From: Sediminibacterium sp.
GTDB taxonomy: Bacteria; Bacteroidota; Bacteroidia; Chitinophagales; Chitinophagaceae
Direction: 5' to 3'
DNA: 64,000 nt
Assembly: GCA_017537025.1 (NCBI GenBank)
Contig: JAFWCB010000008.1
Span: forward strand, 558,001-622,000
Of this stretch, positions 3,914-54,860 are shown one piece after another. Each line of letters begins with the position of its first letter. Position 1 is the first letter of the stretch. Position numbers and translations under genes: made by a program. A model generated the notes under the pieces. It was not told where the DNA came from. It made no database searches and saw only the letters and a program-made list of their open reading frames with translations.

Positions 3914-4477
3914 ATGTCGGAAGAATTATCGATGATTTTAGATGACGCCAGGGAAAGTATGCAAAAAGGAATTGCACATTTGGAAGCTGAATTGGTAAAA
4001 ATAAGAGCGGGAAAAGCAAGTCCTGCCATGCTTGATGGAATTCATGTAGATTATTATGGGGCGCCTACCCCTATCAATCAGGTAGCTAATGTTACCATAT
4101 TAGATGCCCGTACGGTTAGTATTCAGCCTTGGGAAAAAAATATGCTGGCACCAATAGAAAGATCCATAATGGCAGCAAATATTGGTATTACCCCACAAAA
4201 TGATGGGAATCAAATTCGGCTATTTATGCCACCACTTACCGAAGAGCGCAGAAAAGAACTTTTCAAAAAAGCAAGTGCTGAAGGGGAACAATCTAAAGTA
4301 GCTATTCGTAATATCCGTAGAGATGCAATTGAGCAAGTAAAAAAATTACAGAAAGATGGATTGAGCGAAGATGAAGCAAAAGATGCCGAAACTTCTATTC
4401 AGGAACTTACTGATAAATATATTGTATTGGTTGATAAACATTTGGCAGCTAAAGAAAAAGAAATGATGTCCGTGTAA
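3914..4477 (+). CDS. frr: Ribosome recycling factor
   Basis: The 187-residue protein has the length and sequence of RRF, which with EF-G splits the post-termination ribosome. Recognisable segments are KIRAGKASPAML, the VDYYGAPTPINQVANV block, the IQPWEK segment and the C-terminal coiled-coil arm with VAIRNIRRDA and LTDKYI. In many bacteria frr follows pyrH; here the upstream gene is an unrelated glycosyltransferase and frr has its own promoter. The stop codon is the first unit of a heptamer-periodic palindromic spacer. Confidence 0.97.
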   Translation: MSEELSMILDDARESMQKGIAHLEAELVKIRAGKASPAMLDGIHVDYYGAPTPINQVANVTILDARTVSIQPWEKNMLAPIERSIMAANIGITPQNDGNQIRLFMPPLTEERRKELFKKASAEGEQSKVAIRNIRRDAIEQVKKLQKDGLSEDEAKDAETSIQELTDKYIVLVDKHLAAKEKEMMSV

Positions 4478-4539
4478 GGTATAAGCCCTAAGGTGTAAGC
4501 TTAAAGCTTTTACCCTATACCTTTCTCCTTATACCCTAT
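4477..4539. repeat. Heptamer-periodic palindromic spacer between frr and the DMT gene
   Basis: The spacer consists of nine consecutive 7-base units starting at 4477, in the form AGGTATA, AGCCCTA, AGGTGTA, AGCTTAA, AGCTTTT, then ACCCTAT, ACCTTTC, TCCTTAT, ACCCTAT. The purine-led half and the pyrimidine-led half are inversely complementary: GGTATAAG at 4478-4485 pairs with 4528-4535, and an inner pair at 4492-4502 and 4504-4514 matches at 10 of 11 positions. The array includes both flanking stop codons. It probably acts as a bidirectional terminator for the convergent genes; that role is inferred. Confidence 0.75.
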
Positions 4540-5402
4540 TTCCTGTTTGCTAAATAAACACCAATTAAAATAACTGATAAGCAAACTACTTGTTGCATAT
4601 TTACATGCTCCCCACCCCAAATACCCCAGCCAATAGCAACAAATGGGATTCCATATGTTACCATGGAAGCAAATAGAGGTCCTGCTCTTTTTACGAGCAT
4701 ATAAAAAATGATAGAAGCAATCGCTGTTCCAAAAATACCAAGGGTTGCAGATGCCAATGTAGATTGCCAATATGATTGCTGATGCAACGGGTAATGAAAG
4801 TACCCGGAAAAATAAAGAAAAATAGTGCATGGAATAATTAAAAAAACAAATGCCATCGCAGCAATATCAATGGAGCCAATACCCTTCATGTATCTACCTA
4901 CCATATTCACATTAATGCCATAAAACAAAGTAGCAATTAACACTAAAAAAGCATACTGAAAATATTGTAAATTAATATTATTGCCTAGAATTACAAGTAA
5001 GCAAAGTCCTATGAAGCCAATAAGAATCCCAATGGTCTGAATGAATTTTACCTTTAATCCAAAAAATGAGAATCCTACCATTATTACAAATAGTGGGGTG
5101 AGTGCATTCAAAATACCTGCCAAGGCACTATCAATTTTTGTTTCGGCAATACAAAACAAGTAAGCGGGAAAAAAACTGCCTAGCAATCCTGATAAAATAA
5201 CAAGCCAACGTTTATCAGCAGGAATACGCTGTACAGATCTCCAGAAAAAGGGAATTAATACCAACCCGGCGCTGAGTAAACGAATAGAAGCTACTTCGTA
5301 AGGACTCAATACTTGCATGCCCCCTTTCATTAAAATAAAAGAACTACCCCAGATAGTACATAAAGCCGCAAAAAGTAGCCAGTTTAGTAGTTTATTTCCC
5401 AC
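4536..5402 (-). CDS. EamA/DMT-superfamily transporter
   Basis: The 288-residue protein is almost entirely hydrophobic and shows the ten-helix, two-repeat layout of the drug/metabolite transporter superfamily. The first repeat begins WLLFAALCTIWGSSFILMK, a very typical EamA opening, and the second ends with SVILIGVYLANRK. Such proteins usually export amino acids or other small metabolites, but nothing here indicates the substrate. The gene stands alone, convergent with frr. Confidence 0.88.
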   Translation of the reverse strand: MGNKLLNWLLFAALCTIWGSSFILMKGGMQVLSPYEVASIRLLSAGLVLIPFFWRSVQRIPADKRWLVILSGLLGSFFPAYLFCIAETKIDSALAGILNALTPLFVIMVGFSFFGLKVKFIQTIGILIGFIGLCLLVILGNNINLQYFQYAFLVLIATLFYGINVNMVGRYMKGIGSIDIAAMAFVFLIIPCTIFLYFSGYFHYPLHQQSYWQSTLASATLGIFGTAIASIIFYMLVKRAGPLFASMVTYGIPFVAIGWGIWGGEHVNMQQVVCLSVILIGVYLANRK

Positions 5403-5571
5403 GAATAAAATTTGAGCAAAGATGCAGGTTTTATGTGGCTAAATGCATATTCTGAAGTTGCCGGGTTTGGAAAAAGTATGCAACAGCTTTTTTTAATCAA
5501 AGAAAAAATTAGGAAGTGAGTAATTGGAATAAAAAATAAATAGTACATTCATTTTATCTAAAACCTGAATT

Positions 5572-6000
5572 ATGGGAATGCTAAAAGAGTTCAAGGAATT
5601 TGCCATTCGAGGCAATTTAGTAGATACCGCTGTAGCTTTTGTAATGGGGGCTTCATTCGGTAAAATTGTTTCTTCATTTGTGGATGGTATAGTAATGCCT
5701 TTAGTAGGTATGCTTACTGGTGGTATAGATTTTAATGAAAAGAAATGGGTATTGAAGGATGCAGTTGCTGCGGTTAAAGATGCTGCCGGAAAAGTTACAA
5801 CACCCGCTGTAGCAGAGGTTTCCGTAAAATATGGCACATTTATAACTAACTTGATAGATTTTATTATCGTTGCCTTTGCTGTATTTATGGTTATAAAAGC
5901 TATTAATAAGGTGAAGAAGGCTGAACCAAAAGCGGCACCGGCGGGTCCTTCGAGTACAGATGCCTTATTGATGGAGATAAGGGACTCTTTGAGGAAGTAA
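5572..6000 (+). CDS. mscL: Large-conductance mechanosensitive channel
   Basis: This 142-residue protein is MscL, the pentameric channel that opens under membrane tension to release solutes during hypo-osmotic shock. The N-terminal helix and pore helix are clear (FKEFAIRGNLVDTAVAFVMG, then VDGIVMPLVG), followed by a periplasmic loop and a second membrane helix near residues 97-112. The periplasmic loop includes an Ala/Val/Lys-rich stretch. The cytoplasmic tail is short and charged. The start at 5572 is fixed by the conserved MGMLKEFKEF beginning. Confidence 0.95.
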   Translation: MGMLKEFKEFAIRGNLVDTAVAFVMGASFGKIVSSFVDGIVMPLVGMLTGGIDFNEKKWVLKDAVAAVKDAAGKVTTPAVAEVSVKYGTFITNLIDFIIVAFAVFMVIKAINKVKKAEPKAAPAGPSSTDALLMEIRDSLRK

Positions 6001-6003
6001 AAT

Positions 6004-6077
6004 AATCTGGAATCTAGAATCTTCAATCTGAATATGTATTAAAACACCCAGATTCCAGATTGAAGATTCCAGATTTA
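6004..6077. repeat. Heptamer-periodic inverted repeat after mscL
   Basis: Four heptamers of the form AATCTNN occupy 6004-6031 (AATCTGG, AATCTAG, AATCTTC, AATCTGA). Four of the form AGATTNN occupy 6050-6077 (AGATTCC, AGATTGA, AGATTCC, AGATTTA). The outer 12 bases (6004-6015 and 6064-6075) and an inner 10 bases (6021-6030 and 6056-6065) are perfectly inversely complementary, in alternative registers. It begins three bases after the mscL stop, so a role in transcript ending is likely but inferred. Confidence 0.78.
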
Positions 6078-6151
6078 TGGGTGTGGATAATTATTTCTCG
6101 AAACTCGCTGTTTCACTGCCTGTTTATGTTTCTTTGTAAAAAAACCGGAAC

Positions 6152-6949
6152 TTGAGTACTGTAAATTACCAGATTAAGCTTGATCAGTTTGAAGGCCCTT
6201 TCGATTTATTGTTATTTTTTATTGAGCGTGATGAATTAGATATTTATAATATTCCTATTACTAAAATTATCAACGATTTTCTTGATTTTATTCATCAGCA
6301 AGAGAGATTGAATATTGAATTGAGTAGTGAATTTATATTATTTGTTTCTACTTTAATGCGTATCAAAGCGCGATTATTGTTACCAAGAAAAGAAGTAGAT
6401 GCTGCCGGTAACGAAATTGATCCCCGTCAGGAGTTAATCGATAAAATTATTGAATACAAGCGGTTTAAAGAGGCTGCGGTGCAAATGGCAGAAATGGAAG
6501 CCATGCGTATGCTGATGGTGAAGCGCGGAAACCTCCAAAGAGAAATCGCCGGTATAGGTGAAGAAGCTTCAGAAGGAACCGAAATACAGAATATCACGCT
6601 TTTCAAATTGATGAAAGCTTTTGAAAAAGTGATGCAGCGCGTTCATGATCGACAAAATAAGCCTGTACATACCGTAGTTCGGTATAACTATACCATGGAA
6701 GGCAGTAGAGATTATATGCTCGAGTTAATTCAAAAAGGAAGAACTGTTGCTTTTGAACGAGTTTTTGATATCTGCCAAGACCGTATTCATGCTATATTTC
6801 TTTTCTTATCTATTCTCGAACTCGCCCAGCAAAAATATATGAAACTCATGGTGGGGGAAGGCCGTAATAATTTCATTGTTGAATGGAATGAAAATCGGGA
6901 AGCTGAAATTCAGGCTGAAGGTGTCCAAGACGAGGAATTACATCCCTAA
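6152..6949 (+). CDS. scpA: Segregation and condensation protein A
   Basis: The 265-residue product is ScpA, the kleisin that with ScpB and SMC forms the bacterial condensin needed for chromosome segregation. The N-terminal SMC-head-binding region is clear (LDQFEGPFDLLL at 10-21, then DELDIYNIPITKI), and SSEFILFVSTLMRIKARLLLP is the classic family motif. The C-terminal winged-helix part ends near FIVEWNE. The start is a TTG, since no ATG precedes the conserved domain in frame. scpB and smc are not in the window. Confidence 0.93.
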   Translation: MSTVNYQIKLDQFEGPFDLLLFFIERDELDIYNIPITKIINDFLDFIHQQERLNIELSSEFILFVSTLMRIKARLLLPRKEVDAAGNEIDPRQELIDKIIEYKRFKEAAVQMAEMEAMRMLMVKRGNLQREIAGIGEEASEGTEIQNITLFKLMKAFEKVMQRVHDRQNKPVHTVVRYNYTMEGSRDYMLELIQKGRTVAFERVFDICQDRIHAIFLFLSILELAQQKYMKLMVGEGRNNFIVEWNENREAEIQAEGVQDEELHP

Positions 6950-7052
6950 AAATTTACTTCGCCCACTAATAAATTTATATGTAAAAATTTAAGTTTTACC
7001 TAAACTTAATAATTAATTAATCTTTTGTTATCAATTCGTTCACATAGATAAC

Positions 7053-7083
7053 TTGTTAGCCAAGTTTTTCGGTGGCAATTTTG
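7053..7083 (+). promoter_or_regulatory. Candidate promoter for the TonB-dependent receptor
   Basis: A TTG at 7053-7055 lies 20 bases before CAATTTTG at 7076-7083, which differs from TAnnTTTG at one position. The start codon follows after 31 bases. It sits in a 165-bp AT-rich gap that contains no other signal I can name. Confidence 0.4.
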
Positions 7084-7114
7084 CAGCTTAAATTCTGTTA
7101 CAAAACTAATCATT

Positions 7115-10456: not shown

Positions 10457-10483
10457 TAATTTCGGGGGAGATTGTTAAAAGTT

Positions 10484-10514
10484 AAAAGGCCGTTCGCATA
10501 GCGAACGGCCTTTT
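10484..10514. terminator. Bidirectional intrinsic terminator between the receptor gene and dxs
   Basis: A perfect 14-bp stem (AAAAGGCCGTTCGC at 10484-10497 with its complement at 10501-10514) encloses a 3-base ATA loop. It is followed by T-rich sequence on the plus strand and, read the other way, also by a T-rich stretch. It lies between the two convergent genes and can serve both. Confidence 0.9.
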
Positions 10515-10548
10515 GTTTTGTTGCTAAACAAATAGCAACTATAATTTT

Positions 10549-12614: not shown

Positions 12615-12620
12615 TAAAAC

Positions 12621-30183: not shown

Positions 30184-30955
30184 AGAATTGTTTTATAGAA
30201 ATAAATTAACCACAGCTACAGGGTTTATTTTTCTTGGCTTGGCCTTTTTTCTATCTATCTACGCTTTCTTTGATACGGTTACAATCTTGGGCGTTAATAG
30301 TATGATTAAGCCCATAAAATTTTTTGTGAGTACCGGTATCTATTTACTTACACTTTCGTGGTTATTATATTATGTAGAAAATCAACGACGCGTACAACGA
30401 TTTTCTTTGCTTGCAGTGTTTGTAATGAGTTTTGAAAACAGTGTAATTACTATACAAGCTTTACGGGGAACTCGCTCTCATTTTAATCAAACCGACTTGG
30501 CAGGCGGCGTATTATACGGCCTGATGGGGGTTTTCATTGTTTGGCTTACAACTGCTACTTTACTACTAACTATTCGATTTTTTAAACAAAAACAGTTGAC
30601 CATAAGCAAACCTTATGCAAGATCCATTCAACTCGGACTTCTTCTTTTCGTTATATTCAGTTTTTTCGGAGGATATATGAGTGCCGTCAATTCTCATAAT
30701 GTAGGTGGTGCCATGGGTGGAGCAGGATTACCTATATTAAATTGGAGTACCCTATTTGGTGATCTGCGTGTAGCACATTTTTTCGGCATACATGCTTTGC
30801 AAATAATTCCATTTGCAGGATATTGGATCAGCAAAAAAATAAATGATACTTCCAAAGCTGAACTCTACGTTTATCTTGTTTCTCTAACTTGGTTCCTCTT
30901 TGTTGTGTTTACAGCTTACCAGGCTATTTCCGCGCAGCCTTTTATTTTGCATTAA
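30176..30955 (+). CDS. Conserved multi-pass membrane protein, function unknown
   Basis: This 259-residue protein starts with GTG inside the end of the preceding gene, an overlap that implies translational coupling. It has about seven hydrophobic helices. Conserved-looking polar motifs sit at helix ends: MSFENSVITIQALRGTRSHFN and DLRVAHFFGIHALQIIPF, with histidines that could bind a metal or heme. I do not recognise a named family. As the last gene of the GMC dehydrogenase operon it may take part in the same electron transfer or membrane chemistry. Its stop overlaps metG on the other strand. Confidence 0.75.
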   Translation: MIKELFYRNKLTTATGFIFLGLAFFLSIYAFFDTVTILGVNSMIKPIKFFVSTGIYLLTLSWLLYYVENQRRVQRFSLLAVFVMSFENSVITIQALRGTRSHFNQTDLAGGVLYGLMGVFIVWLTTATLLLTIRFFKQKQLTISKPYARSIQLGLLLFVIFSFFGGYMSAVNSHNVGGAMGGAGLPILNWSTLFGDLRVAHFFGIHALQIIPFAGYWISKKINDTSKAELYVYLVSLTWFLFVVFTAYQAISAQPFILH

Positions 30956-33108
30956 CTAATTCCACTTCCATTCTCGATTGTAGTAGAGGGGTGTATAAAA
31001 TATAATTTACCTGCCGCATCTTCTGCCATCAATATCATGCCATTACTTTCAATGCCTCTCATTTTACGAGGAGCTAAATTAGTAACTACTGTAACTTGTT
31101 TACCAATGATTTCTTCCGGTTTAAAATGAAGTGCGATACCGGAAACAATAGTTCTTATTTCAAAACCGAGGTCGATCTGAAGTTTTAAAAGTTTATCTGC
31201 CTTCTCTACTTTCTCGGCTGCTACAATAGTACCTACTTTTAAATCGATCTTAGCAAAATCATCAAACTGAATTTCCTCCTTCACTTTAGCTCCTACACCC
31301 TTATCGTTTATCCCTTGAACCTTATTACCTTCTCCCTTTTTGCTTTCACCTTTAACCTCAATAGCAGCATTCAATTTCTGTACTTGTTTCTCTATTTCTT
31401 CGTTTTCAATTTTTCTAAATAATAATTCCGGAGCGCGAAGACTATAACCTACACTTAATAATTTCATACTACCCGCATTTTCCCAATCTAATATCTTATC
31501 TACCACTTTCAGTAAATAACAAATTTTCTTGGCAGTAAAAGGTAGAAATGGATTTATAAGAATAGCAAGATTTGCTGTTAGCTGTAAGCAAATGTGTAAG
31601 CAGTTATCAATTAGCTTTTGTTCTTCACTCAGGTCTCCCGTCTCCGGTCTAAGTTTCTTCGCTACAATCCAAGGCTCTTTCTTCTGCATGTATTGATTAC
31701 CGATACGCGCCAAATTAATCACTTCAAAAAGGGCATCTCTGAATTTATATTCTTCCAATAAATGGGTGATCCTATCTTTTGCGGCACTAATTGCGTCAAT
31801 CGTTGTTCGATCTAAATCATCGAGTATGGCGGTATGTAATGGTGGAACTTTACCTTTACAAAGCTTGTGCATCAATACTAAACTGCGATTGATAAAATTG
31901 CCAAAAATGCTCACCAATTCGCTATTGTTTGCATCTTGAAAACCTTTCCAGGTAAATTCGCTGTCTTTACTTTCCGGTGCAATTTGTGTGAGATAGTAAC
32001 GCAAAACATCGGCCATTTGACTGCCGCCGTTTTCCTGTTTTATAAAATCATCAATATAATCTTGCATCTCGAGTTTCCAGTTTCTGCTGGTACTCATTTT
32101 ATCTCCCTCCAAGTTCATGAACTCATTTGCCGGTACATTATCCGGTAAAATATTACCATGTAATTTCAGCATTACCGGAAAAATGATGCAGTGAAATACA
32201 ATATTATCTTTCCCAATAAAATGGACCATCTTGGTAGATGCATCTTCCCAATACGGTTTCCAATCTTTTCCATTGTCTAAAGCCCACTGTTTGGTAGCGC
32301 TGATATATCCTATCGGAGCATCGAACCATACATAGAGTACTTTACCTTCACCATTTTGTACAGACGCCGGTAGCTTCACACCCCAATCTAAATCACGTGT
32401 AACAGCTCGTGGCTGTAAACCGCCATCGATCCAGCTTTTACATTGGCCCACAACATTAGCACGCCAATCATTTCCATGTTCGCCTATAATCCATTCGCGT
32501 AAAAAACTTTCATACTTATCTAAAGGTAAATACCAATGTGTTGTATTTTTTTTGATAGGAGGATTGCCACTAAGTGTACTTACCGGATTTATCAATTCAT
32601 CAGGGCTCAAACTCTTACCACAATTTTCGCATTGATCCCCGTAAGCGCCAGGGTTACTACAATTAGGGCAAGTACCCTTTATATATCTATCTGCTAAAAA
32701 ACTATTAGCAGCTTCATCAAAATACTGTTCGGTTTCTTTAGTAATGAGTTCACCGGCGTTATTCAATTTTTCAAAAAATGCCGTTGCGGTTTGATGATGT
32801 ATAGTTGAGCTTGTTCTATGGTAGATATCAAAAGAAATTCCAAGATCAGCAAAATTTTGAGCGATGATGGGATGATATTTGTCGATCATTTCCTGCGGCG
32901 TAATTCCTTCTTTGGTTGCCTGAATAGGAATCGCCGTTCCATGTTCATCACTTCCACAAACAAATACTACATCCCTTTTTTGAGCACGTAAATATCGGAC
33001 ATAAGTATCTGCTGGTAAGTACGCGCCGGCAAGGTGACCGATATGTTTCAATCCATTAGCATAAGGTAATGCTGCGGTGATGAGGTATCTTTTTGGTTCT
33101 TGTTTCAT
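30952..33108 (-). CDS. metG: Methionyl-tRNA synthetase with C-terminal tRNA-binding domain
   Basis: The 718-residue enzyme charges tRNA-Met. It has the HIGH region (PYANGLKHIGHL), a zinc knuckle (CPNCSNPGAYGDQCENC), the KMSKS variant DKMSTSRN and a C-terminal EMAP/Trbp111 domain from about residue 612. I start it at 33108 (MKQEPKRYLITAALPY); an ATG at 33171 would add 21 residues that precede the conserved domain. Two segments are encoded by 7-bp-periodic DNA: residues 487-492 (RPETGD) and the Gly/Lys-rich linker at about 584-607 between the anticodon and tRNA-binding domains. Its 3' end overlaps the membrane-protein gene by 4 bp. Confidence 0.96.
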   Translation of the reverse strand: MKQEPKRYLITAALPYANGLKHIGHLAGAYLPADTYVRYLRAQKRDVVFVCGSDEHGTAIPIQATKEGITPQEMIDKYHPIIAQNFADLGISFDIYHRTSSTIHHQTATAFFEKLNNAGELITKETEQYFDEAANSFLADRYIKGTCPNCSNPGAYGDQCENCGKSLSPDELINPVSTLSGNPPIKKNTTHWYLPLDKYESFLREWIIGEHGNDWRANVVGQCKSWIDGGLQPRAVTRDLDWGVKLPASVQNGEGKVLYVWFDAPIGYISATKQWALDNGKDWKPYWEDASTKMVHFIGKDNIVFHCIIFPVMLKLHGNILPDNVPANEFMNLEGDKMSTSRNWKLEMQDYIDDFIKQENGGSQMADVLRYYLTQIAPESKDSEFTWKGFQDANNSELVSIFGNFINRSLVLMHKLCKGKVPPLHTAILDDLDRTTIDAISAAKDRITHLLEEYKFRDALFEVINLARIGNQYMQKKEPWIVAKKLRPETGDLSEEQKLIDNCLHICLQLTANLAILINPFLPFTAKKICYLLKVVDKILDWENAGSMKLLSVGYSLRAPELLFRKIENEEIEKQVQKLNAAIEVKGESKKGEGNKVQGINDKGVGAKVKEEIQFDDFAKIDLKVGTIVAAEKVEKADKLLKLQIDLGFEIRTIVSGIALHFKPEEIIGKQVTVVTNLAPRKMRGIESNGMILMAEDAAGKLYFIHPSTTIENGSGIS
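31289..31358 (-). repeat. Heptamer-periodic tract encoding the metG interdomain linker
   Basis: Read on the minus strand from 31358, ten successive 7-base units run AGGTTAA, AGGTGAA, AGCAAAA, AGGGAGA, AGGTAAT, AAGGTTC, AAGGGAT, AAACGAT, AAGGGTG, TAGGAGC. Three units span seven codons, so the protein linker has a seven-residue rhythm of Gly and Lys. The units match those of the spacer at 54769-54820. Confidence 0.7.
31630..31650 (-). repeat. Short AGACCGG-type heptamer tract inside metG
   Basis: On the minus strand the sequence from 31650 is AGACCGG, AGACGGG, AGACCTG, three heptamers. The first 18 bases match the uvrA tract at 47400-47417 at 17 positions and encode the same RPETGD in the same frame. 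Confidence 0.7.
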
Positions 33109-33151
33109 AATCTGGGCTGCAAAAATAAGCAAAGCCCAGTTAACAACCCTT

Positions 33152-33183
33152 TTTGGGTAAATAATACGCATTTAGTACTTTAG
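33152..33183 (+). promoter_or_regulatory. Promoter for the first S66 carboxypeptidase, implying a leaderless mRNA
   Basis: TTTG at 33152-33155, a 20-base spacer and TACTTTAG at 33176-33183 fit the Bacteroidota promoter with one mismatch. The ATG at 33187 follows the -7 element by three bases, so transcription should start at or next to the start codon. Confidence 0.45.
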
Positions 33184-45539: not shown

Positions 45540-45545
45540 TACTAT

Positions 45546-46079: not shown

Positions 46080-46080
46080 T

Positions 46081-46814: not shown

Positions 46815-49667
46815 ATGGCAGTTAAAACAGTAAAGGCCTCTATAAAAGAGCGTGATGATCTCAGTTCAGGTATTTTAGTAAAAGGCGCACGTACCCATAA
46901 TCTTAAAAATGTAACCGTTTCTTTCCCTAGAAATAAATTAATAGTAGTTACAGGTGTTTCTGGTAGCGGTAAATCTTCTCTTACGATTGATACACTTTTT
47001 GCTGAAGGCCAACGTAGATACGCAGAAAGCTTGAGTGCTTACGCCCGCCAATTCATGGCACGTATGGTAAAACCTGATGTGGATTATATAAAAGGACTTT
47101 GTCCGGCCATTGCTATTGAACAAAAGGTAATCACGCGTACGCCGAGAAGTACGGTTGGCAGTATGACGGAAATCTACGATTATCTCCGTTTACTCTACGC
47201 TCGGATCGGCAAAACAATCTCCCCCATTAGTGGTAAGCAAGTAAAAAAAGACGATGTAACAGATGTGGTTGCCGCGGTTCAACAATTAGCTATCGGCACG
47301 AAAGTATTAATCATCGTTCCTTTTAAACAACATGCCAAGCGAGATGCCAGAGAGGAACTAAATATCCTGATGCAGAAGGGGTTTGTGCGGATTTATGTTA
47401 GACCGGAGACCGGAGACCGAAGACCGGGATTAGGAATCGGAGAGATTAAAAGAATAGAAGAGTTATTGGAGTTAGATGATAAAGCCCTCAAGAAAACGCT
47501 CTCTGATAAAGGCTTACAAAGTTTTGTATTGATTGATCGTATTGTGGTGAAAGATTTTGAAGAAGAAGATATTCATAGATTGAGCGACTCCATAGGAACA
47601 GCATTCTATGAAGGAGAAGGAGAGATGCAATTGGAATTAGATGGTAATAAGCTTCTTCATTTTAGTAACAAGTTCGAAGCTGATGGTATTGTATTCGAAG
47701 AGCCTTCTCCCAATCTGTTTTCTTTTAATAATCCCTATGGTGCATGTAGTGTTTGTGAAGGGTTCGGACAAGTATTAGGGATAGATAGCAGTTTGGTAAT
47801 CCCCGATCAACGATTGAGTGTATACGAAGGCGCCGTTGCGCCTTGGAAAGGAGAGAAATTAGTATGGTGGAAAGAACAATTTATAAAAGGAGCCGGTAAA
47901 CTAGGCTTCCCTATTCATAAACCAGTTATCGATCTTACCAAAGAGCAGTACCTACAATTATGGCATGGCGGTAATGGGGTATATGGAATTCACGATTTCT
48001 TCAAAGAGGTAGAACAAAATTTATATAAAGTTCAGTACCGGGTTTTATTGAGTAGATATAGGGGTAGAACCGATTGTCAAACCTGTGGTGGATATCGCTT
48101 ACGTAAAGAAGCACTGTATGTAAAAGTGAGTGATAAACATATAGGAGAACTTTGCGAAATGCCTGTGAAAGAACTAAAGAATTGGTTTGATACATTAATA
48201 ATAAGTGAACAAGATCAGGCAATAGCTAAAAGGATTTTATTAGAGCTACATCAACGCATTAAAACCTTATTAGATGTAGGTTTAGGGTATCTCACCTTAA
48301 ACCGTCTTGCCAACTCATTAAGTGGCGGTGAGAGCCAAAGAATTCAGCTAACGCGTAGTTTAGGTAGTAATCTTACCAATTCATTATACATATTAGATGA
48401 ACCTTCTATCGGACTTCATTCCAGAGATACTGCTCGTTTAATCGAGGTATTAAAATCCTTGCGTGATTTAGGGAATACGGTTGTAGTAGTAGAACATGAT
48501 GAAATGATTATGCGCGAAGCTGATCATATTATAGATATGGGACCTTTAGCTTCTCATTTGGGTGGGGAAGTGGTAGCAGCCGGAGACTATAAAATGATTA
48601 TTGATCATAAAGAAAGTCTTACCGGTAAATATTTAAAGGGAGAATACACTATTGAATCGCCCAAGCAAACAAGAAAATGGAATAGTAGTTTGAAAGTGGA
48701 AGGAGCCAGACAAAATAATTTAAAAAATATTACAGTTGAATTCCCGCTTCATTTGTTTTGCGTTGTTACGGGTGTGAGTGGTAGTGGTAAAACCACTTTG
48801 GTGAAACAGATTTTATATCCTGCCTTGCAAAAGTTGAAAGGTGAGTTTTCAGAAAAAGTAGGATTGCATAAACAAATAATAGGAGATATAGACGGAATTT
48901 CACAAATTGAAATGATAGACCAAAACCCAATCGGTAAATCGTCTCGTAGTAACCCAATTACTTATATCAAAGCTTATGATTCTATTCGTGATTTATATTC
49001 CAAACAAAGCCTTTCTAAACTACGTGGATTTCAACCTAAACATTTTTCATTTAATGTTGATGGCGGTAGATGCGATACCTGTAAAGGCGAGGGAGAACAG
49101 ATTATAGAAATGCAGTTTTTAGCGGATGTACACCTTACTTGTGAATCCTGTGGTGGTAAACGATTTAAAGAGGAGGTGTTGGAAGTAAAATATAATGGTA
49201 AGTCAATTCATGATGTATTAGAAATGAGTGTAGATGAAGCCCTCGAATTTTTCAAAGAAGAAAAAGCCATACGAGTTGCCATACAACCTTTGCATGATGT
49301 GGGTTTGGGATACGTAAAATTGGGGCAAAGTAGTGATACGTTAAGTGGGGGTGAAGCGCAGCGCGTTAAGCTGGCAAGTTTTTTAGGTAAAGGAAAAGGA
49401 ATCGGGCATGTACTTTTTATTTTCGATGAGCCTACAACCGGATTGCATTTTCATGATATAAAAAAATTACTCAATTCTTTTAATGCACTCATTGAGCAGG
49501 GGCATTCCTTGATTGTTATTGAACATAATACCGATGTTATTAAATCGGCCGATTGGATGATCGATATGGGACCTGAAGCTGGCGATGGAGGCGGCACACT
49601 GGTATATGCAGGTGTACCTGCGGGTTCAAAAAAAGTGAAAGAGAGTATTACGGGGAGGTTTTTGTGA
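46815..49667 (+). CDS. uvrA: Excinuclease ABC subunit A
   Basis: The 950-residue protein is UvrA, the damage sensor of nucleotide excision repair. Both ABC modules are intact: Walker A motifs GVSGSGKSS and GVSGSGKTT, signatures LSGGESQRIQL and LSGGEAQRVKL, and Zn-binding cysteines (CQTCGG, CDTCKGEGEQ, CESCGGKR). The ATG at 46815 is preferred over a TTG three codons earlier. Residues 196-205 (RPETGDRRPG) are encoded by four tandem copies of AGACCGG, an in-frame insertion of repeat DNA in the UvrB-binding/insert region. The stop is followed at once by octamer and heptamer arrays. Confidence 0.97.
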   Translation: MAVKTVKASIKERDDLSSGILVKGARTHNLKNVTVSFPRNKLIVVTGVSGSGKSSLTIDTLFAEGQRRYAESLSAYARQFMARMVKPDVDYIKGLCPAIAIEQKVITRTPRSTVGSMTEIYDYLRLLYARIGKTISPISGKQVKKDDVTDVVAAVQQLAIGTKVLIIVPFKQHAKRDAREELNILMQKGFVRIYVRPETGDRRPGLGIGEIKRIEELLELDDKALKKTLSDKGLQSFVLIDRIVVKDFEEEDIHRLSDSIGTAFYEGEGEMQLELDGNKLLHFSNKFEADGIVFEEPSPNLFSFNNPYGACSVCEGFGQVLGIDSSLVIPDQRLSVYEGAVAPWKGEKLVWWKEQFIKGAGKLGFPIHKPVIDLTKEQYLQLWHGGNGVYGIHDFFKEVEQNLYKVQYRVLLSRYRGRTDCQTCGGYRLRKEALYVKVSDKHIGELCEMPVKELKNWFDTLIISEQDQAIAKRILLELHQRIKTLLDVGLGYLTLNRLANSLSGGESQRIQLTRSLGSNLTNSLYILDEPSIGLHSRDTARLIEVLKSLRDLGNTVVVVEHDEMIMREADHIIDMGPLASHLGGEVVAAGDYKMIIDHKESLTGKYLKGEYTIESPKQTRKWNSSLKVEGARQNNLKNITVEFPLHLFCVVTGVSGSGKTTLVKQILYPALQKLKGEFSEKVGLHKQIIGDIDGISQIEMIDQNPIGKSSRSNPITYIKAYDSIRDLYSKQSLSKLRGFQPKHFSFNVDGGRCDTCKGEGEQIIEMQFLADVHLTCESCGGKRFKEEVLEVKYNGKSIHDVLEMSVDEALEFFKEEKAIRVAIQPLHDVGLGYVKLGQSSDTLSGGEAQRVKLASFLGKGKGIGHVLFIFDEPTTGLHFHDIKKLLNSFNALIEQGHSLIVIEHNTDVIKSADWMIDMGPEAGDGGGTLVYAGVPAGSKKVKESITGRFL
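47400..47427 (+). repeat. Four tandem AGACCGG heptamers inside uvrA
   Basis: AGACCGG occurs four times head to tail from 47400 to 47427, the third with a final A. The first 18 bases match an unlinked tract in metG (31633-31650, opposite strand) at 17 positions. Both are translated as RPETGD. Confidence 0.85.
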
Positions 49668-49669
49668 GG

Positions 49670-49701
49670 AAGTCCGAAAGTCGGGAAGTCCGGGAGTCGG
49701 C
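49670..49701. repeat. Octamer tandem repeat after uvrA
   Basis: Four 8-base units follow the uvrA stop: AAGTCCGA, AAGTCGGG, AAGTCCGG, GAGTCGGC. The units alternate AGTCCG and AGTCGG, which are partly self-complementary. A separate heptamer array begins three bases later. Confidence 0.7.
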
Positions 49702-49703
49702 CA

Positions 49704-49759
49704 ACCTTATACCTTCAACCTTATACCTTCTACCTTCTACCTTCTACCTTACACCTTCT
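49704..49759. repeat. Eight-unit ACCTTNN heptamer array at the uvrA / DUF4293 junction
   Basis: Eight consecutive 7-base units run without interruption: ACCTTAT, ACCTTCA, ACCTTAT, ACCTTCT three times, ACCTTAC, ACCTTCT. The last base falls in the stop codon of the convergent DUF4293 gene. Unlike the other spacers it has no complementary half. As an RNA from the minus strand it would be purine-rich. Confidence 0.85.
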
Positions 49760-50181
49760 TACCTAATCCTATCCGCACTCTTCACTAATTTTTCGTCTTT
49801 ATAAATGGCGCGAAGTGCAAGTGCTAAAAATAATGGTATCGAAAAATGTATGAGTGAACTGAGATCTAAACTAGATTCCGTAAAATTACTTTCAATAGAA
49901 AAATACAGTCCAATAAGTATAATGGAAAGAATACCGGCTGCCAATACTATGAGTGACTGACGTTTTCTGTCTTTATACATAAAAATACTTACTAAAGCCG
50001 TAACAGATATAATTACAGTAAGTATGAGAATCCATACATTTTGCTGAGCAGTATATCGAATAAATTCTTTGACGTTGGTTGTAGTATTTAATTGATTACC
50101 ACTAAAAAAAGAAAACTTAAAACTACCAGTTGTAAAAGCTGCTGCGAGTAGAAGCCATAAACTTTGAATACGTTGGATCAT
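49759..50181 (-). CDS. DUF4293-family membrane protein
   Basis: The 140-residue protein has four membrane helices and the conserved opening MIQRIQSLWLLLAA of the DUF4293 family, which is largely confined to Bacteroidota. The final cytoplasmic segment is AIYKDEKLVKSADRIR; such an LxxSADRIR ending is characteristic of the family. Function is unknown. It lies 32 bp downstream of glyA on the same strand and may share its transcript. Its stop codon overlaps the heptamer array. Confidence 0.85.
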   Translation of the reverse strand: MIQRIQSLWLLLAAAFTTGSFKFSFFSGNQLNTTTNVKEFIRYTAQQNVWILILTVIISVTALVSIFMYKDRKRQSLIVLAAGILSIILIGLYFSIESNFTESSLDLSSLIHFSIPLFLALALRAIYKDEKLVKSADRIR

Positions 50182-50213
50182 AATATAGTGAATTATGAAT
50201 TAAGAGTTATGAA

Positions 50214-51494
50214 TTATCCTAATTCCGGGTATAAAACGAATTGCTCCATAAATGCATTTACCTCTTTTCTCACGGCTGTAATTACGGATGCATCATCTGC
50301 GTGGGTAAGTACATTATCGATAGCATCTACTACAAATGGCATATGTTCTTCTTTCATACCTCTGGTTGTAATAGCAGCTACTCCAAAACGGATACCTGAT
50401 GTTACAAAGGCGCTTTTATCATCAAAGGGAACCATATTTTTATTGGCAGTAATATCGGCTTGTACCAGCGCTTGTTCTGCTTTCTTACCGCTTATATTTT
50501 TATTACGTAAATCAATTAACATCAGGTGGTTATCTGTTCCTCCACTGATAATATGATAACCTTTATCAACAAAAGCAGCTGCCATCGATTGTGCATTTTT
50601 TTGTACTTGTTGTTGATAGACTAGGAAATCGTCTGATAAAATTTCTCCAAAAGCAACAGCCTTAGCAGCAATTACGTGTTCTAACGGGCCTCCTTGAATA
50701 CCCGGGAATACAGCCATATCAATAATATTACTCATCATCCGAATATTACCCTTTACATCATTCAATCCCCAGGGATTTTCAAAATCTTTTTTCATCATAA
50801 TAATACCCCCGCGTGGCCCTCTTAAGGTTTTATGCGTGGTAGACGTAACAAAATGACAATGCTCAAAAGGAGAATTCAATAATTTTTTAGCAATGAGGCC
50901 TGCAGGGTGAGCAATATCTGCCATCACTAAGGCACCTACTTCATCGGCTACTTTTCTGATTCTGGCATAATCCCAATCTCTACTATATGCACTGGCACCA
51001 CAGTAAATTAATTTTGGTTTTACTTCACGAGCTTTTTTCTCAAGCATCTCATAATCTATTAAGCCGGTTTCTTTCACTACACCATAAAAATGAGGCTGAT
51101 ATAATTTGCCACTGTAGTTAACGGCGCTTCCATGGGTAAGATGCCCGCCCATACTTAAATCTAATCCTAAAGTAGCATCGCCCGGCTGTAAAACCGCTAA
51201 GGCTACTGCAGCATTGGCTTGCGCACCACTATGCGGTTGTACGTTGGCATAGTCAATATTAAAAATGGCTTTTAATCGGTCTATAGCTAATTGCTCTGTT
51301 TGATCTACAATTTCACAGCCTGCATAATATCTTTTTCCGGGGTATCCTTCTGCATATTTATTGGTCATCACATTACCCATAGCCTGCATTACCTCTAAAC
51401 TCGTAAAGTTCTCAGAAGCAATAAGCTCAATTCCATGACGCTGACGTATTAATTCCTGTTTAATTAAATCGAAAACTTGGGTATCTTTTGGCAT
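50214..51494 (-). CDS. glyA: Serine hydroxymethyltransferase
   Basis: The 426-residue PLP enzyme interconverts serine and glycine while loading tetrahydrofolate with a one-carbon unit. The opening [10 protein letters not shown], the [14 protein letters not shown] segment, [11 protein letters not shown] and the PLP lysine Lys222 in [12 protein letters not shown] are all standard. Length is typical. The gene is divergent from the nucleotidyltransferase across 141 bp in which I see no certain promoter. Confidence 0.97.
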
Positions 51495-51635
51495 TAGACG
51501 TATTTTGGTGCGAATTTACCATGATTTCCACAAAATTGGGATAATTCAGGGTATTTACTATTTTCACGTTCCATTTGACTATTGTGTGTAATGTACATGT
51601 TGATAATTTGTAGTCAAAAAACATAAAGAGCCCTC

Positions 51636-52628
51636 ATGAAAGCGATTATACCTGTTGCCGGAGCCGGAACTAAACTACGACCACATACTTATACTCAGCC
51701 GAAGGCCTTGATACCCATTGCCGGGAAAACAATTTTGAGTTTTATTGTAGATCAATTCAAGGATGCAGGAATCCGGGAATTTATTTTTATTGTTGGTTAT
51801 TTGGGGGAAAAAATTCAAGACTATGTGCGTCAAACCTATCCGGATCTAACCACTCATTTTGTTTTTCAGAATGAAAGACAGGGTACCGGTCATGCCATTG
51901 AACTCACCCGAAATATTGTTGGAACTGATGAAGTATTTGTAGCCTTAGGAGATACTATTTGCGAGTATGATGTACAAGAAGTGGTGAATAGCCCTTATAG
52001 CATGCTGGGTGTAAAGAAGGTAGATGACCCCCGCAATTTTGGCGTAGCCAGTATTGATGAGCAAGGATTCATAGATCAGGTTGTAGAGAAGCCGGCTATA
52101 CCTAAAAGTAATATGGCCTTGGTAGGTTTATATAAGATTAAAGAAACTCATTTTTTATTTGAGTGTTTGCATCACTTGTTTATGCAAGATATCAAAACAC
52201 AAGGCGAGTATAATCTCACCGATGCACTGGATTGTATGATAAAGCGAGGTGCAAAATTTCAATCTTTTAAAGTAAAAAACTGGTTTGATTGTGGGAAGAA
52301 GGAAACACTGTTAGAAAGCAATGCAACACTTTTAAAGAAATTCGGAGGGAATATCAATGAAAACCACAATTTTAAAGATACCATCATCATTCCCCCGGTA
52401 AGTATTGCTCCGGGTTGTGAAATTTCAAATGCGATCATTGGACCACATGTAGCGATTGGTGCCAATACTTCTATCAAACATTCCATTGTGCGTGATAGTA
52501 TTATCGGGTCTTATACAAATTTATTTGAAGTGGTTTTAGATAACTCTTTAATCGGAAGCGATGCGTCTGTGAAAGGGTTGAGTAGAAGTCTGAATATTGG
52601 GGATAATACCGAGATCGATTTCGGATAA
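51636..52628 (+). CDS. Sugar-phosphate nucleotidyltransferase with left-handed beta-helix tail
   Basis: The 330-residue protein has an N-terminal NTP-transferase domain (residues 1 to about 235) that opens MKAIIPVAGAGTKLRPHTYTQPKALIPI, with the metal-site LGDTICEYD and the sugar-binding VVEKP and NWFDCGKKE. A C-terminal hexapeptide-repeat helix follows (about 245-325, with ISNAIIGPHVAIGANTSIKHSIVRDSIIG). This layout is found in glucose-1-phosphate thymidylyl- and uridylyltransferases of archaeal type. The donor nucleotide cannot be fixed from sequence. The Crp-type regulator gene follows after 10 bp. Confidence 0.88.
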   Translation: MKAIIPVAGAGTKLRPHTYTQPKALIPIAGKTILSFIVDQFKDAGIREFIFIVGYLGEKIQDYVRQTYPDLTTHFVFQNERQGTGHAIELTRNIVGTDEVFVALGDTICEYDVQEVVNSPYSMLGVKKVDDPRNFGVASIDEQGFIDQVVEKPAIPKSNMALVGLYKIKETHFLFECLHHLFMQDIKTQGEYNLTDALDCMIKRGAKFQSFKVKNWFDCGKKETLLESNATLLKKFGGNINENHNFKDTIIIPPVSIAPGCEISNAIIGPHVAIGANTSIKHSIVRDSIIGSYTNLFEVVLDNSLIGSDASVKGLSRSLNIGDNTEIDFG

Positions 52629-52638
52629 AATACGCACG

Positions 52639-53268
52639 ATGGATAACCAAAAAGCTATCGTCACATCACTTAAAGCATTTAAAGAGCCTGCGTTACAAGA
52701 AGCCTTACTTACGCATGGTCAAATTCTCCATTTTCAGAAAGGAGATACGATTGTTAAGATCGGACAATATGTTCGGTTCCTGCCTATTGTATTAAAAGGG
52801 TCTATCAGGGTATTTCAACAAAAAGAAGATCGTGAGTTTTCATTGTATTATGTTCGTGAAGGCGAAACCTGCACTATGAGCTTAGCTGCAGCCTATTTTA
52901 ATAATAAGAGTGTTTCACACGGTGTGGTGATGGAACCTACAGAACTGCTTATATTTCCGGCTAACTTTTTAACAGAATGGCAATTGCAATTTCCCTCCTG
53001 GAATCAATATATCATCGCCATGTTTCGCCGGCGGTACGATGAGCTAATCAATAATTTTGAAGGTGTTGTTTTTGAACATATGCCCGTACGTATTATGGAG
53101 TATTTACGCAGAAGGGTCATTACAGATGAAAGCAGGATATTAAATTTATCCCATCAAACAATTGCAAATGAACTGGGAACAACCCGAGTAGTTGTTTCGC
53201 GAATCCTCAAGCAATTCGAGAAAGAAAAAAAATTAAAACTACTAAGAGGACAAATCGAAATCAAGTAA
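52639..53268 (+). CDS. Crp/Fnr-family transcriptional regulator
   Basis: The 209-residue regulator has an N-terminal cyclic-nucleotide-binding-like beta-roll (about 15-125, LHFQKGDTIVKIGQYVRFLPIVLKG) and a C-terminal winged helix with recognition segment LSHQTIANELGTTRVVVSRILKQFE. No iron-sulfur cysteines are present. I start it at 52639 (MDNQKAIVTSL), ten bases after the previous stop; an ATG at 52597 would run it into that gene. Being immediately upstream, it may control the DsrE-like gene 74 bp downstream, which is inference. Confidence 0.88.
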   Translation: MDNQKAIVTSLKAFKEPALQEALLTHGQILHFQKGDTIVKIGQYVRFLPIVLKGSIRVFQQKEDREFSLYYVREGETCTMSLAAAYFNNKSVSHGVVMEPTELLIFPANFLTEWQLQFPSWNQYIIAMFRRRYDELINNFEGVVFEHMPVRIMEYLRRRVITDESRILNLSHQTIANELGTTRVVVSRILKQFEKEKKLKLLRGQIEIK

Positions 53269-53342
53269 ATCCCTGTTTTGTATCTTTTGATACCGTTTAA
53301 TGGTTTTGCCATAGTGTAATCTTGTGCTATAAATTTTTAAAT

Positions 53343-53804
53343 ATGAAAAAAATAGCTAAGCAAATCATGCTACAGGTTATATTAATTACCTGTATTTCTT
53401 TAGCGAGTAAAACAACACTTATGGCACAAACAAGTACTTCACCCATGAAATTGTTAATTCAAGTCACTTGCGGAACAGAAAATCCAACCAAATCCGCCCT
53501 TGCTTTTTTATTAGCCAGAACAGCTGTAGAAGAGGGAAATACGGTTACGCTTTTTTTAGCAGGGGATGGCGTAACATTAATTCGTGATCAAACCATTGAA
53601 AGTGTGGTAGGACTAGGAACCGGTAAATTAAAAGAACATCTTGACGTATTACTTAAAGCGGGAGTAAAAATTTATTTATCAACAAATTCAAGCAAAGCAA
53701 GGGGTATTACAGAAGCAGATCTTGTAAATAAAAATGCAAGTTTTACTTTACCTACTCAGTTTGTTAAATTGATTAAAGAAAATGATAAAGTAATCGTGTA
53801 TTAA
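53343..53804 (+). CDS. Exported DsrE/DsrF-like protein
   Basis: The 153-residue protein has a DsrE-like fold (from about residue 33, LLIQVTCGTENPTKSALAFLLARTAVEEG, then VTLFLAGDGV) preceded by a signal peptide (MKKIAKQIMLQVILITCISL to about residue 29). The ATG at 53343 begins that signal and is preferred to one at 53322. Cytoplasmic DsrE proteins handle sulfur in TusBCD-like relays, but an exported copy is unusual. A single Cys lies in QVTCGTE near residue 38; the second active-site cysteine of DsrE is not evident. It ends 4 bp before a convergent gene. Confidence 0.78.
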   Translation: MKKIAKQIMLQVILITCISLASKTTLMAQTSTSPMKLLIQVTCGTENPTKSALAFLLARTAVEEGNTVTLFLAGDGVTLIRDQTIESVVGLGTGKLKEHLDVLLKAGVKIYLSTNSSKARGITEADLVNKNASFTLPTQFVKLIKENDKVIVY

Positions 53805-53808
53805 TTTT

Positions 53809-54762
53809 CTAATGGATATTTTTTTGTAGCAGAGATAAGGATTGCTGATATTCTTCGATCATCTCTGCTACAACTTTTCCTGCAGGCTTTATATCATTAA
53901 TAAGTGAGGCAACCTGTCCGATTTCTAATTCGCCTTCTTGCATATCACCTTCGAACATCCCTTTTTTAGCACGTGCCCTTCCAAGGATAGTTTGTAACTC
54001 AATAGCATCAGCGCCTCGCTGTTCGGCTTCTTCAATTTTATTGGCAAAATCATTTTTTAATAACCTCACCGGTACTAATTTTTTCATACTCAATTTGGTA
54101 TCACCTTCTTGAGCCGCTATAATGGCTTCTTTAAAGTGAATATGAGAAGAGGCTTCCGGAGTACAAACAAAACGACTCCCTACTTGAACTGCATCGGCTC
54201 CTAATGCGAAAGCAGCCAGCATTTGAGATCCTGTTGCAATACCCCCTGCGGCAATTACCGGAATTTGTACGCTTGCTTTTACAGCAGGTATTAAAACTAA
54301 TGTGGTTGTTTCTTCTCTACCATTATGTCCACCCGCTTCAAACCCTTCTGCTACAACTGCATCACAACCTGCTTCTTCTGATTTTTTTGCAAATTTGCTG
54401 CTGCTTACTACATGAACCACTTTTATACCTGCCGCTTTTAATTTGCTTGTCCAGGTTTTTGGATTACCGGCACTGGTAAATACAATGGGTACTTTTTCTT
54501 CTATAATGATTTGAATATGTTGGTCTAAGTCGGGATATAATAAAGGCAGATTTACGCCAAAAGGCTTAATGGTAGCCGATTTACATTGTTGGATATGTTC
54601 TCGTAGTACGTTAGGATACATGCTGCCTGCACCAATTATACCCAAACCGCCTGCATTGCTTACTGCACTTGCCAGCTTCCAACCGCTTGCCCACACCATT
54701 CCTGCTTGAATAATCGGATATTCAATATTGAATAATTTGCAGATAGGGTTGGAGGTGAACAT
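53809..54762 (-). CDS. Nitronate monooxygenase / FabK-like flavoprotein
   Basis: The 317-residue TIM-barrel flavoprotein belongs to the nitropropane-dioxygenase/enoyl-reductase II superfamily. It opens CKLFNIEYPIIQAGMVWASG and contains AEGFEAGGHNG, the FMN-phosphate segments IPVIAAGGIATG and GADAVQVGSRF. This group oxidises alkyl nitronates or acts as the FMN-dependent enoyl-ACP reductase FabK, and sequence alone does not decide between them. A heptamer-periodic palindrome separates it from the SDR gene upstream, so it may have its own promoter. Confidence 0.85.
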   Translation of the reverse strand: MFTSNPICKLFNIEYPIIQAGMVWASGWKLASAVSNAGGLGIIGAGSMYPNVLREHIQQCKSATIKPFGVNLPLLYPDLDQHIQIIIEEKVPIVFTSAGNPKTWTSKLKAAGIKVVHVVSSSKFAKKSEEAGCDAVVAEGFEAGGHNGREETTTLVLIPAVKASVQIPVIAAGGIATGSQMLAAFALGADAVQVGSRFVCTPEASSHIHFKEAIIAAQEGDTKLSMKKLVPVRLLKNDFANKIEEAEQRGADAIELQTILGRARAKKGMFEGDMQEGELEIGQVASLINDIKPAGKVVAEMIEEYQQSLSLLQKNIH

Positions 54763-54766
54763 GAGG

Positions 54767-54860
54767 AAAGGTTATAGGTAAAAGGTAATAGGTTATAGGT
54801 AATAGGGAGCAGGGAATAGGTCTTTTACTGTAACCTATTACCTGTAACCTTTCGCCTATT
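54767..54860. repeat. Heptamer-periodic palindromic spacer between the SDR and the nitronate monooxygenase genes
   Basis: From 54769, seven heptamers run AGGTTAT, AGGTAAA, AGGTAAT, AGGTTAT, AGGTAAT, AGGGAGC, AGGGAAT. After a 12-base centre, the other half is ACCTATT, ACCTGTA, ACCTTTC, GCCTATT from 54833 to 54860. A 13-bp perfect inverted pair (54783-54795 with 54831-54843) and an outer 8-bp pair (54767-54774 with 54845-54852) give a long hairpin. The last unit overlaps the SDR stop codon. The probable role is to end the SDR transcript. Confidence 0.8.

Follow-up and report, generated by a model that had tools for sequence, protein, structure and literature searches.

How can the tandem repeats of one genome share a unit length and an arrangement when their letters differ from place to place? 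The question is raised by a 64,000-nucleotide stretch (C23:558001–622000, hereafter the window) of the 3.19 Mb draft genome of a Sediminibacterium (Chitinophagaceae; 29 contigs, 94.7% complete), in which short arrays of degenerate heptamers lie between genes, across their stop codons and inside them (Table 1). A first-pass annotation of the window had gathered these arrays into one dispersed class with a constant period and a variable unit sequence, and our scans of this genome and its relatives confirm this grouping. They also reveal a polarity: wherever the units of an array in the sampled part of this genome change direction, they do so inward, including where the two arms belong to different unit families.

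Heptamer arrays in the genome and its relatives

The scan of the Sediminibacterium genome covered 1.264 Mb (40%) in four sampled pieces. It returned 95 strong segments at a lag of 7, compared with 6, 12, 7, 0, 1 and 11 at lags 6, 8, 9, 10, 11 and 12, respectively, and three order-5 Markov shuffles gave 0, 1 and 0 lag-7 segments. When spacers only are considered (170,915 b), 76 segments are found at lag 7, 9 at lag 8 and none at lags 6, 9 and 10. The lag-7 excess that the first-pass annotation had supposed is thus found in all four pieces, and its size relative to other lags and to the shuffles rules out chance or coding periodicity. The 95 segments collapse into 89 array regions, 75 outside genes and 14 within, which are present on all four pieces. 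In the window, an independent scan of lags 4 to 12 with a score threshold of 15 or more gave lag-7 segments at 4472–4551, 47400–47426, 49704–49757 and 54769–54820, and one hit at another lag (lag 9). All the arrays listed previously were found, the 6004/6048 pair being weaker (score 13 each).

The main unit families are TAGTGNN, AGGTNNT/AGGGNNT, GAATTNN, AATCTNN, AGACNNT and GTCANTG, plus their complements; 13 of the 75 noncoding regions match none of the family motifs used. Related genomes were surveyed through 80 named loci around frr (1.32 Mb), which are short, partly related and not independent. They contain 75 lag-7 segments spread over 28 loci, the counts at other lags being 4 (lag 6), 16 (lag 8), 13 (lag 9), 0 (lag 10), 29 (lag 12) and 45 (lag 14). 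The unit varies by genome, from GTTTGGG-like (L152) to CGTGAGT-like (L153), AAGATAA-like (L146) and GAGTGAG-like (L168). Spreading of a single sequence is ruled out, because units differ between loci and between species. Within the genus, some species are rich in arrays (G346, 9 in 60 kb; G295, 4 in 40 kb); none was found in the sampled parts of G297 (60 kb), G298 (40 kb), or G283 and G263 (about 150 kb each, masked runs excluded). At the level of the phylum, four consecutive TAGTGNN units occur in 23 of 247 genomes, and the reversed pattern used as a control, which is a heptamer too, in about the same number (23); the matches among the places listed are mostly perfect repeats, and this draw contains none in the other genome of the same genus or in six genomes of the same family.

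The distribution of the arrays relative to genes is uneven: the 96 convergent spacers contain 18 regions, the 601 tandem spacers 50 and the 127 divergent spacers 7 (convergent vs divergent, Fisher p 0.002). The distance to the nearest stop codon is within 22 b in 52 of 68 cases and negative in 37 of 68, meaning that the array overlaps the gene end, in keeping with the earlier remark that arrays often include stop codons. In the window, the array at 4472–4551 covers the frr stop codon and the right arm at 54828–54860 that of the short-chain dehydrogenase/reductase (SDR) gene 54856–55614 (−). The orthologue of the latter gene in S. salmoneum (G283, L109) is found as two matched pieces with a stop codon. 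In two relatives (G281, L095; G285, L096), the stop codon of the upstream gene is supplied, as judged by eye, by an array of GAGTGAG units, more numerous in G285 than in G281, and the array is followed in both by an ordinary terminator hairpin.

Comparison with relatives suggests how the arrays came to these positions. The stop codons of frr and of the EamA transporter gene abut (0 b) in G283 and G263; here they are 58 b apart and the gap is filled by an array. The same spacer is shorter than 20 b in 24 of 48 syntenic relatives. Likewise, the mscL–scpA spacer is free of arrays in 11 relatives and carries a two-arm array here. As judged from these alignments, the arrays are insertions relative to array-free relatives, so the spread to new sites proposed in the first-pass annotation is supported. 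The frr–EamA array is retained in L130, an uncultured 'Flavihumibacter' metagenome-assembled genome contig and the nearest named record among the 80 loci, which is 87% identical to the first 14.4 kb of the window (87% overall identity).

Arrays within genes were compared with protein structures in metH, uvrA, the fused E1 alpha/beta gene, IspG, MetG and GltX, one large protein having no useful template. The metH array corresponds to a 9-residue insertion relative to 9ssp and the uvrA array to a 12-residue insertion relative to 3pih; for IspG, MetG and the fused E1 alpha/beta protein, the array positions correspond to linkers, interdomain stretches or gap edges. Such arrays are thus read in frame, in parts of the proteins that tolerate added residues. 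More specifically, in metG (30955–33171, Pfam), the residues encoded by 31301–31358 stand between two aligned domains of 1rqg and those encoded by 31628–31650 at the edge of a 10-residue insertion relative to the same structure; both runs belong to genome-wide unit families and lie on or beside stretches that have no counterpart in 1rqg. Segments with a lag-7 score of at least 9 number 64 in genes, compared with 29–41 at lags 5, 8, 10 and 11. Hence, the claim that the period extends into uvrA and metG is sound for uvrA (score 18), the metG runs being weak when taken alone (scores 11 and 10). Note that the peptide RPETGD, common to UvrA, MetG and IspG, is a translated AGACCGG/AGACGGG array.

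Inward polarity and turnover of the arms

The orientation of each unit family was defined as that standing left in its own palindromes. With this definition, all 35 changes of direction in the sampled genome are inward and none is outward. Twenty-nine join arms of the same family (AATCT, 13; TAGTG, 5; AGGT/AGGG, 5; GAATT, 5; AGAC, 1) and six join arms of different families; the latter constitute an independent test of polarity (sign test p 0.03). The closest genome found (G347), in which uvrA is near-identical (5112 of 5162 bits) and identity elsewhere is 87–99%, displays 7 more inward changes and no outward one. Polarity can also be followed through base composition. Among the partly related loci of the relatives, 26 of 32 heptamer pairs have the G-richer arm first and 5 the C-richer arm, with one tie, six of the 38 pairs having been left out because their arms are not heptameric. 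In the Sediminibacterium genome, 21 pairs are G-first, 8 are C-first (seven of them AATCTNN) and one is a tie. Inverted repeats in array-free spacers of the same genome are not biased in this way, with 25 G-first, 31 C-first and 8 ties, compared with 18 G-first and 4 C-first in array spacers.

Some arrays of period 8 belong to the same class as the heptamers. A GGAAGTCC/CGGACTTC-like family stands beside heptamers in the window (49668–49700) and at c23 104469 and 162083 and c19 125909, 174563 and 176838. Period-8 arrays built of other units occur in the relatives L148, L153, L177 and L208 with the same inward polarity; in the period-8 pairs of four loci, the G-richer arm comes first in 7 of 7.

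Turnover was assessed at 13 sites shared with G347, site c17 22549 having been dropped because it lies at an alignment edge. Four sites have the same length, five differ by multiples of 7, three show complex changes (−74, +31 and −2 in G347) and one has changed family. The multiples of 7 are, in G347, +21, +14, +7, −7 and, in the two arms of one array, +7 with +42; the +21 b change corresponds to three extra units in the uvrA–DUF4293 array at 49704–49764. In the window, 47400–47426, 50189–50217 and 54769–54821 are unchanged in G347, and the array inside uvrA (47400–47426) is not present as such in G277. The loci are thus not perfectly conserved, and both gain and loss of units occur between close relatives, as expected from the first-pass annotation. 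Importantly, the arms change independently: at c17 190681 only the right arm differs (−7), and the +7 and +42 changes at c17 192024 affect the left and right arms, respectively. Two replacements suggest, moreover, that a site can stay while its letters are swapped. At c17 195434, a TAGTGNN two-arm array in one of the two genomes corresponds to a GAATTNN two-arm array in the other, with conserved flanks and inward polarity in both; in the mscL–scpA spacer, AATCTNN here corresponds to a TAGTGNN two-arm array in L130. At C19:128604–128700, a CCCCGAAGGGG palindrome lies beside a heptamer array; in G347 (L226), a duplication comprises the palindrome and part of the array.

The first-pass annotation had described the class as palindromic, which is only partly accurate. 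Strong ungapped inverted repeats are found in 30 of 75 noncoding array regions vs 37 of 280 array-free spacers, and are missing from the other 45. The two arms at 54769–54821 and 54828–54860 form such a repeat, with 21-b arms, and the 6004/6077 pair, which falls below the arm-match threshold, is nearly perfect by eye. The mean arm match is nevertheless 13.8 within a locus vs 15.6 between loci, and the within-locus match ranks first in 3 of 23 loci only. The notion that the arms are inverted copies of each other is not supported by these scores. Since the arms are unmatched and the six mixed arrays are equally inward, palindromy looks like a by-product of polarity. A CCCTGAGCTTGTCGAAGGG palindrome stands between two heptamer arms at C23:111733–111770 (in L019); it resembles a short repeat widespread among environmental bacteria.

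What, then, could set the polarity? Hairpin pairing fails to explain it, because the arms are unmatched and independent in their unit changes, and because mixed families are inward too. Transcription direction fails as well: single arms have no preferred orientation relative to the nearest gene (15 against 14), so that no setting of orientation by the neighboring gene is seen. Selection for stop codons was also considered. Of 38 pairs, 23 have more stop codons in the left arm than in its complement, 7 have fewer and 8 have as many, but stop-less pairs (GTTTGGG-like) and AATCTNN pairs are still inward, which argues against this cause. The polarity therefore probably reflects the process that makes the arrays, not hairpin pairing.

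Table 1. Repeat arrays in the window, with position, gene context and score or detection method
Feature	Position	Context	Support
Heptamer array, inward-facing arms	4472–4551	Between frr (ribosome recycling factor, +) and EamA transporter gene (−)	Lag-7 score 19
Left arm, AATCTNN	6004–6031	Immediately 3' of mscL stop codon	Lag-7 score 13
Right arm, AATCTNN reverse complement	6048–6077	Ahead of scpA	Tandem Repeats Finder (TRF) 7 x 4.0, score 13
Weak array in metG	31301–31358	Encodes linker preceding tRNA-binding domain	Lag-7 score 11
Short heptamer run in metG	31628–31650	Encodes RPETGDLS	Lag-7 score 10
Four AGACCGG units in uvrA	47400–47426	Encode RPETGDRRPG	Lag-7 score 18
Period-8 array, GGAAGTCC-like	49668–49700	Immediately 3' of uvrA stop codon	TRF period 8/16
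About nine ACCTTNN units	49704–49764	Spacer between uvrA and DUF4293 gene	Lag-7 score 33
Short GAATTNN array, missed by the first-pass annotation	50189–50217	Spacer between DUF4293 and SHMT (serine hydroxymethyltransferase) genes	TRF 7 x 4.1, score 14
Left arm, AGGTNNT/AGGGNNT	54769–54821		Lag-7 score 25
Right arm, reverse orientation	54828–54860		TRF (finds 54828–54850); sequence

Array growth, transcription termination and alternative explanations

The reading that we favor, with about as much doubt as confidence, is that the arrays are dispersed heptanucleotide satellites, of a few families per genome, located mainly at gene 3' ends, whose arms have grown by directed slippage and which may serve as substitutes for terminators. 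Each arm would grow by slippage-type synthesis in one direction, usually by extension of the G-richer strand 3'-ward, from the flank to the center, until the two extended ends meet head to head; extension of one strand 3'-ward from the flank would explain the polarity. Being harmless at gene ends, the arrays would then persist there, and could stand in for ordinary terminator hairpins or permit their loss. What remains as a source of the arrays is polymerase slippage with a strand bias of unexplained origin, no dedicated enzyme having been identified with the Y1_Tnp, RVT_1 and Ku profiles.

Several points weigh against this reading. As orientation is derived from the palindromes, the same-family count tests consistency within families only, and the G347 cases bring no independent support, because six of the seven, including its mixed case, are orthologous to sites already counted. 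'G-richer first' is a tendency and no rule. The arms of an array are mostly of one family (29 vs 6), which independent growth from two ends would not by itself predict, and the direction of growth is read from the arrangement only, no intermediate having been seen. The array in GltX aligns without any insertion. Finally, genes were called from codon usage with simple scripts and some were missed (e.g. DUF4293), and the terminator detectors used below are simple home-made scripts with a high background.

A bolder version, which we regard as unlikely, is that this is sequence-free, period-locked gene-end DNA, in which every heptamer is acceptable, units are exchanged at a site that stays in place, and the arms arise by growth of one strand from the flank towards the center. 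If this were true, the bacteria of this family would possess a strand-directed, heptamer-adding synthesis acting at breaks or stalled forks, and telomere-like tracts would lie inside a bacterial chromosome, where they would have replaced ordinary transcription terminators.

A role in termination was assessed by searching for canonical terminators in spacers of 40–220 b. They are predicted in 4 of 39 array-bearing spacers vs 97 of 260 array-free ones (Fisher p 0.0005); after shuffling of the same spacers, the counts are 9 of 39 and 50 of 260, which shows a high detector background that the array spacers do not exceed. With a stricter detector, the counts are 3 of 68 vs 100 of 440 gene ends (26 of 254 when shuffled). 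At the mscL–scpA spacer, a hairpin followed by a T-rich run is predicted in all 11 array-free relatives, less strongly in G279, G281 and G285, as compared to a weak hit here and none in L130. In the frr–EamA spacer, where arrays were recognized by eye, the detector reports a hit in 2 of the 8 spacers with an array and in 11 of the 16 others, so that arrays and canonical terminators look like alternatives at this site. This scarcity fits with arrays standing in for terminators, and equally with terminators having decayed or been displaced where arrays were inserted.

These figures, together with the enrichment in inverted repeats and with the retention of an array at a site whose unit family changes, also speak for dedicated bidirectional terminators, or protectors of RNA 3' ends, in which a hairpin is selected and any heptamer palindrome suffices. 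We consider this alternative possible but doubtful. It is difficult to reconcile with the regions that have no strong ungapped inverted repeat, with arms that gain and lose units independently (c17 190681 and c17 192024) and match no better within than between loci, and with mixed-family arrays that keep their polarity without pairing. Besides, no U-tract rule was found for the array spacers, which do not have the GC hairpin plus T-run form of intrinsic terminators, and convergent gene pairs hold no excess of two-arm arrays (6 of 18 regions, against 14 of 50 between tandem and 4 of 7 between divergent genes). The statement that the arrays terminate transcripts is thus left with the rarity of canonical terminators in its favor; the absence of a U-tract and of convergent enrichment and the unoriented single arms speak against it.

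If the arrays were instead binding sites of a putative period-7 nucleic-acid-binding protein, selected at gene ends, the combination of a constant period with a free sequence would resemble a spacing constraint, and a site might well keep its array while the family changes. We find this rather improbable, given that units vary freely from one locus or species to the next and that sister species have no arrays in the stretches read (G297, G298, G283 and G263).

The dispersed, intergenic and often palindromic nature of the arrays also evokes a mobile palindromic element of the repetitive extragenic palindrome (REP) kind, moved by a Y1 transposase (REP-associated tyrosine transposase, RAYT). There is a loose fit between arrays and the Y1_Tnp profile, which matches in this genome, G347, G277, G281 and G256 and is absent in G283, G263, G257, G249 and G267, and a Y1_Tnp gene of G282 has a heptamer palindrome as its immediate neighbor (L282). 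Yet the Y1_Tnp gene of this genome is flanked by a different, GCTCCTACGGAGC-like REP and no heptamers, no heptamer array lies near the Y1_Tnp copies of G259 (L280) and G256 (L283), arrays are present without a Y1_Tnp match in G285 and G269 (both drafts), and the arrays have no constant ends or conserved palindromic core. As for the G282 palindrome, it is the clearest C-first exception and may be of another kind. A mobile element of this type is decidedly improbable, and RAYT mobilization of the arrays unlikely. As observations in their own right, the RAYT-like Y1 gene at G000:C19:692239–692583 (L281) lies amid several GCTCCTACGGAGC-type palindromes, a REP-like family separate from the heptamers, and the palindrome of L282, made of CCCATCG units, adjoins the Y1_Tnp gene within 1423–1942.

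A telomere-like process, in which both 3' ends of a chromosome break receive a templated heptamer from a reverse transcriptase or end-joining machinery before they are joined, would account for the inward polarity, for arms independent of each other, for single arms in both orientations and for insertion into array-free sites. The many unit families per genome would, however, demand many templates, and the arms are mostly of the same family. Nor do profile searches support a reverse transcriptase and Ku as makers: RVT_1 matches occur in array-bearing G256 and G346 and also in array-poor G283, G263 and G297, and, among 19 genomes, Ku matches are limited to G295 and G279. RVT_1 (PF00078) has no match in this genome or in G347, G277, G281, G285, G269, G279 and G295, other polymerase families not having been searched, and Ku has none in this genome. 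We therefore hold such a process to be highly improbable. Lastly, G-quadruplexes, as proposed for the Xanthomonas GGGAATC repeats, are hardly tenable and are rejected as a general explanation: the G-richer arm usually comes first and some units contain GGG, but a G-quadruplex motif is present, on either strand, in only 5 of 89 array regions and the G-poor GAATTNN pairs obey the polarity (5 of 5).

Relation to known repeats

Several unrelated unit families of one genome share period and inward polarity, which makes the cause testable. Period and direction are separable from sequence; therefore, the cause must operate through length and strand and be blind to letters. The pair formed by this genome and G347, together with array-free sister species (e.g. 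S. salmoneum, in the stretches read), offers a natural experiment on the birth and turnover of arrays and on their effect on 3' ends. For annotation, the arrays carry a warning, since a peptide that recurs in unrelated proteins, as RPETGD does, can stem from the translation of satellite DNA.

The short tandemly repeated repetitive (STRR) sequences of filamentous cyanobacteria consist of tandem heptanucleotides and comprise several sequence families. The Sediminibacterium arrays resemble them on both counts, and the likeness to cyanobacterial heptamer repeats drawn by the first-pass annotation is apt; the STRR material examined mentions no inward pairs or polarity. The part consulted of the report on Xanthomonas, which also cites the Calothrix STRR case (PMC4692102), describes a class that the first-pass annotation did not name. 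GGGAATC repeats are degenerate heptamers present at 186 and 183 sites in two genomes and mostly intergenic, at a mean of 28 nt from the upstream gene, with 16% in convergent vs 7–8% in divergent position (PMC4692102). Their length varies among related species, and the two genomes contain 70 and 75 convergent pairs (PMC4692102), an arrangement which, as we read it, is the inward polarity seen in Sediminibacterium. According to the same pages, Nostoc has GGGGA(C/T)T heptamer repeats, and the over-representation of heptamers in bacteria has been noted, polymerase slippage being offered as a hypothesis only (PMC4692102). The Sediminibacterium arrays share with the Xanthomonas, Nostoc and STRR repeats a period beyond chance, intergenic dispersal and variation in unit number. 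They differ from the Xanthomonas and Nostoc repeats as described in those pages, with one G-rich family per genome viewed as G-quadruplexes, in having several families, G-poor ones included, and in their mixed-family polarity, whole-family replacement and protein-lengthening arrays.

Other repeats are more distant. As far as the sections consulted tell, TAACTGA direct repeats occur in Beggiatoaceae, Cyanobacteria and five Bacteroidetes with an intergenic and patchy distribution, and differ mostly by 7-nt indels between two close Cyanothece strains (PMC4679880). They have one fixed unit, lie mostly upstream of starts in the BOGUAY genome and are nearly all direct (PMC4679880), whereas the Sediminibacterium arrays lie at 3' ends, have free units and form inward pairs, and thus fall outside the TAACTGA repeats. 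Excerpts of a study of Bacillus describe tandem repeats of constant length (52 or 20–21 nt) whose sequence is free between families and species (PMC8161180); both systems are length-fixed and sequence-free, the Sediminibacterium units being of 7 nucleotides (some of 8) in short degenerate arrays. A 2014 survey, seen in part, reports 6–11 bp tandem repeats as over-represented in some genomes (PMC4060949).

Interstitial telomeric sequences are made by telomerase, and their head-to-head fusions share the inward polarity. In vertebrates, they are described, in the part of the source consulted, as short tandem repeats that have entered sites unoccupied in the orthologues (PMC7215372). The Sediminibacterium arrays are likewise inserted at empty sites, but their genome has no RVT_1 match. 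REP/RAYT and Rickettsia palindromic elements are dispersed, palindromic and often located at gene ends, those of Rickettsia being also found in frame within genes; unlike them, the Sediminibacterium arrays have no fixed core or constant ends, and the RAYT of this genome carries another REP.

Searches of the open-licence literature, which does not take in subscription papers, listed no description of arrays of this kind for Sediminibacterium or Chitinophagaceae. In conclusion, the nearest described relative found is the Xanthomonas GGGAATC class, and what is new here is the coexistence of unrelated families in one genome, a polarity independent of unit and of pairing, family swaps at fixed sites and arrays that lengthen proteins.

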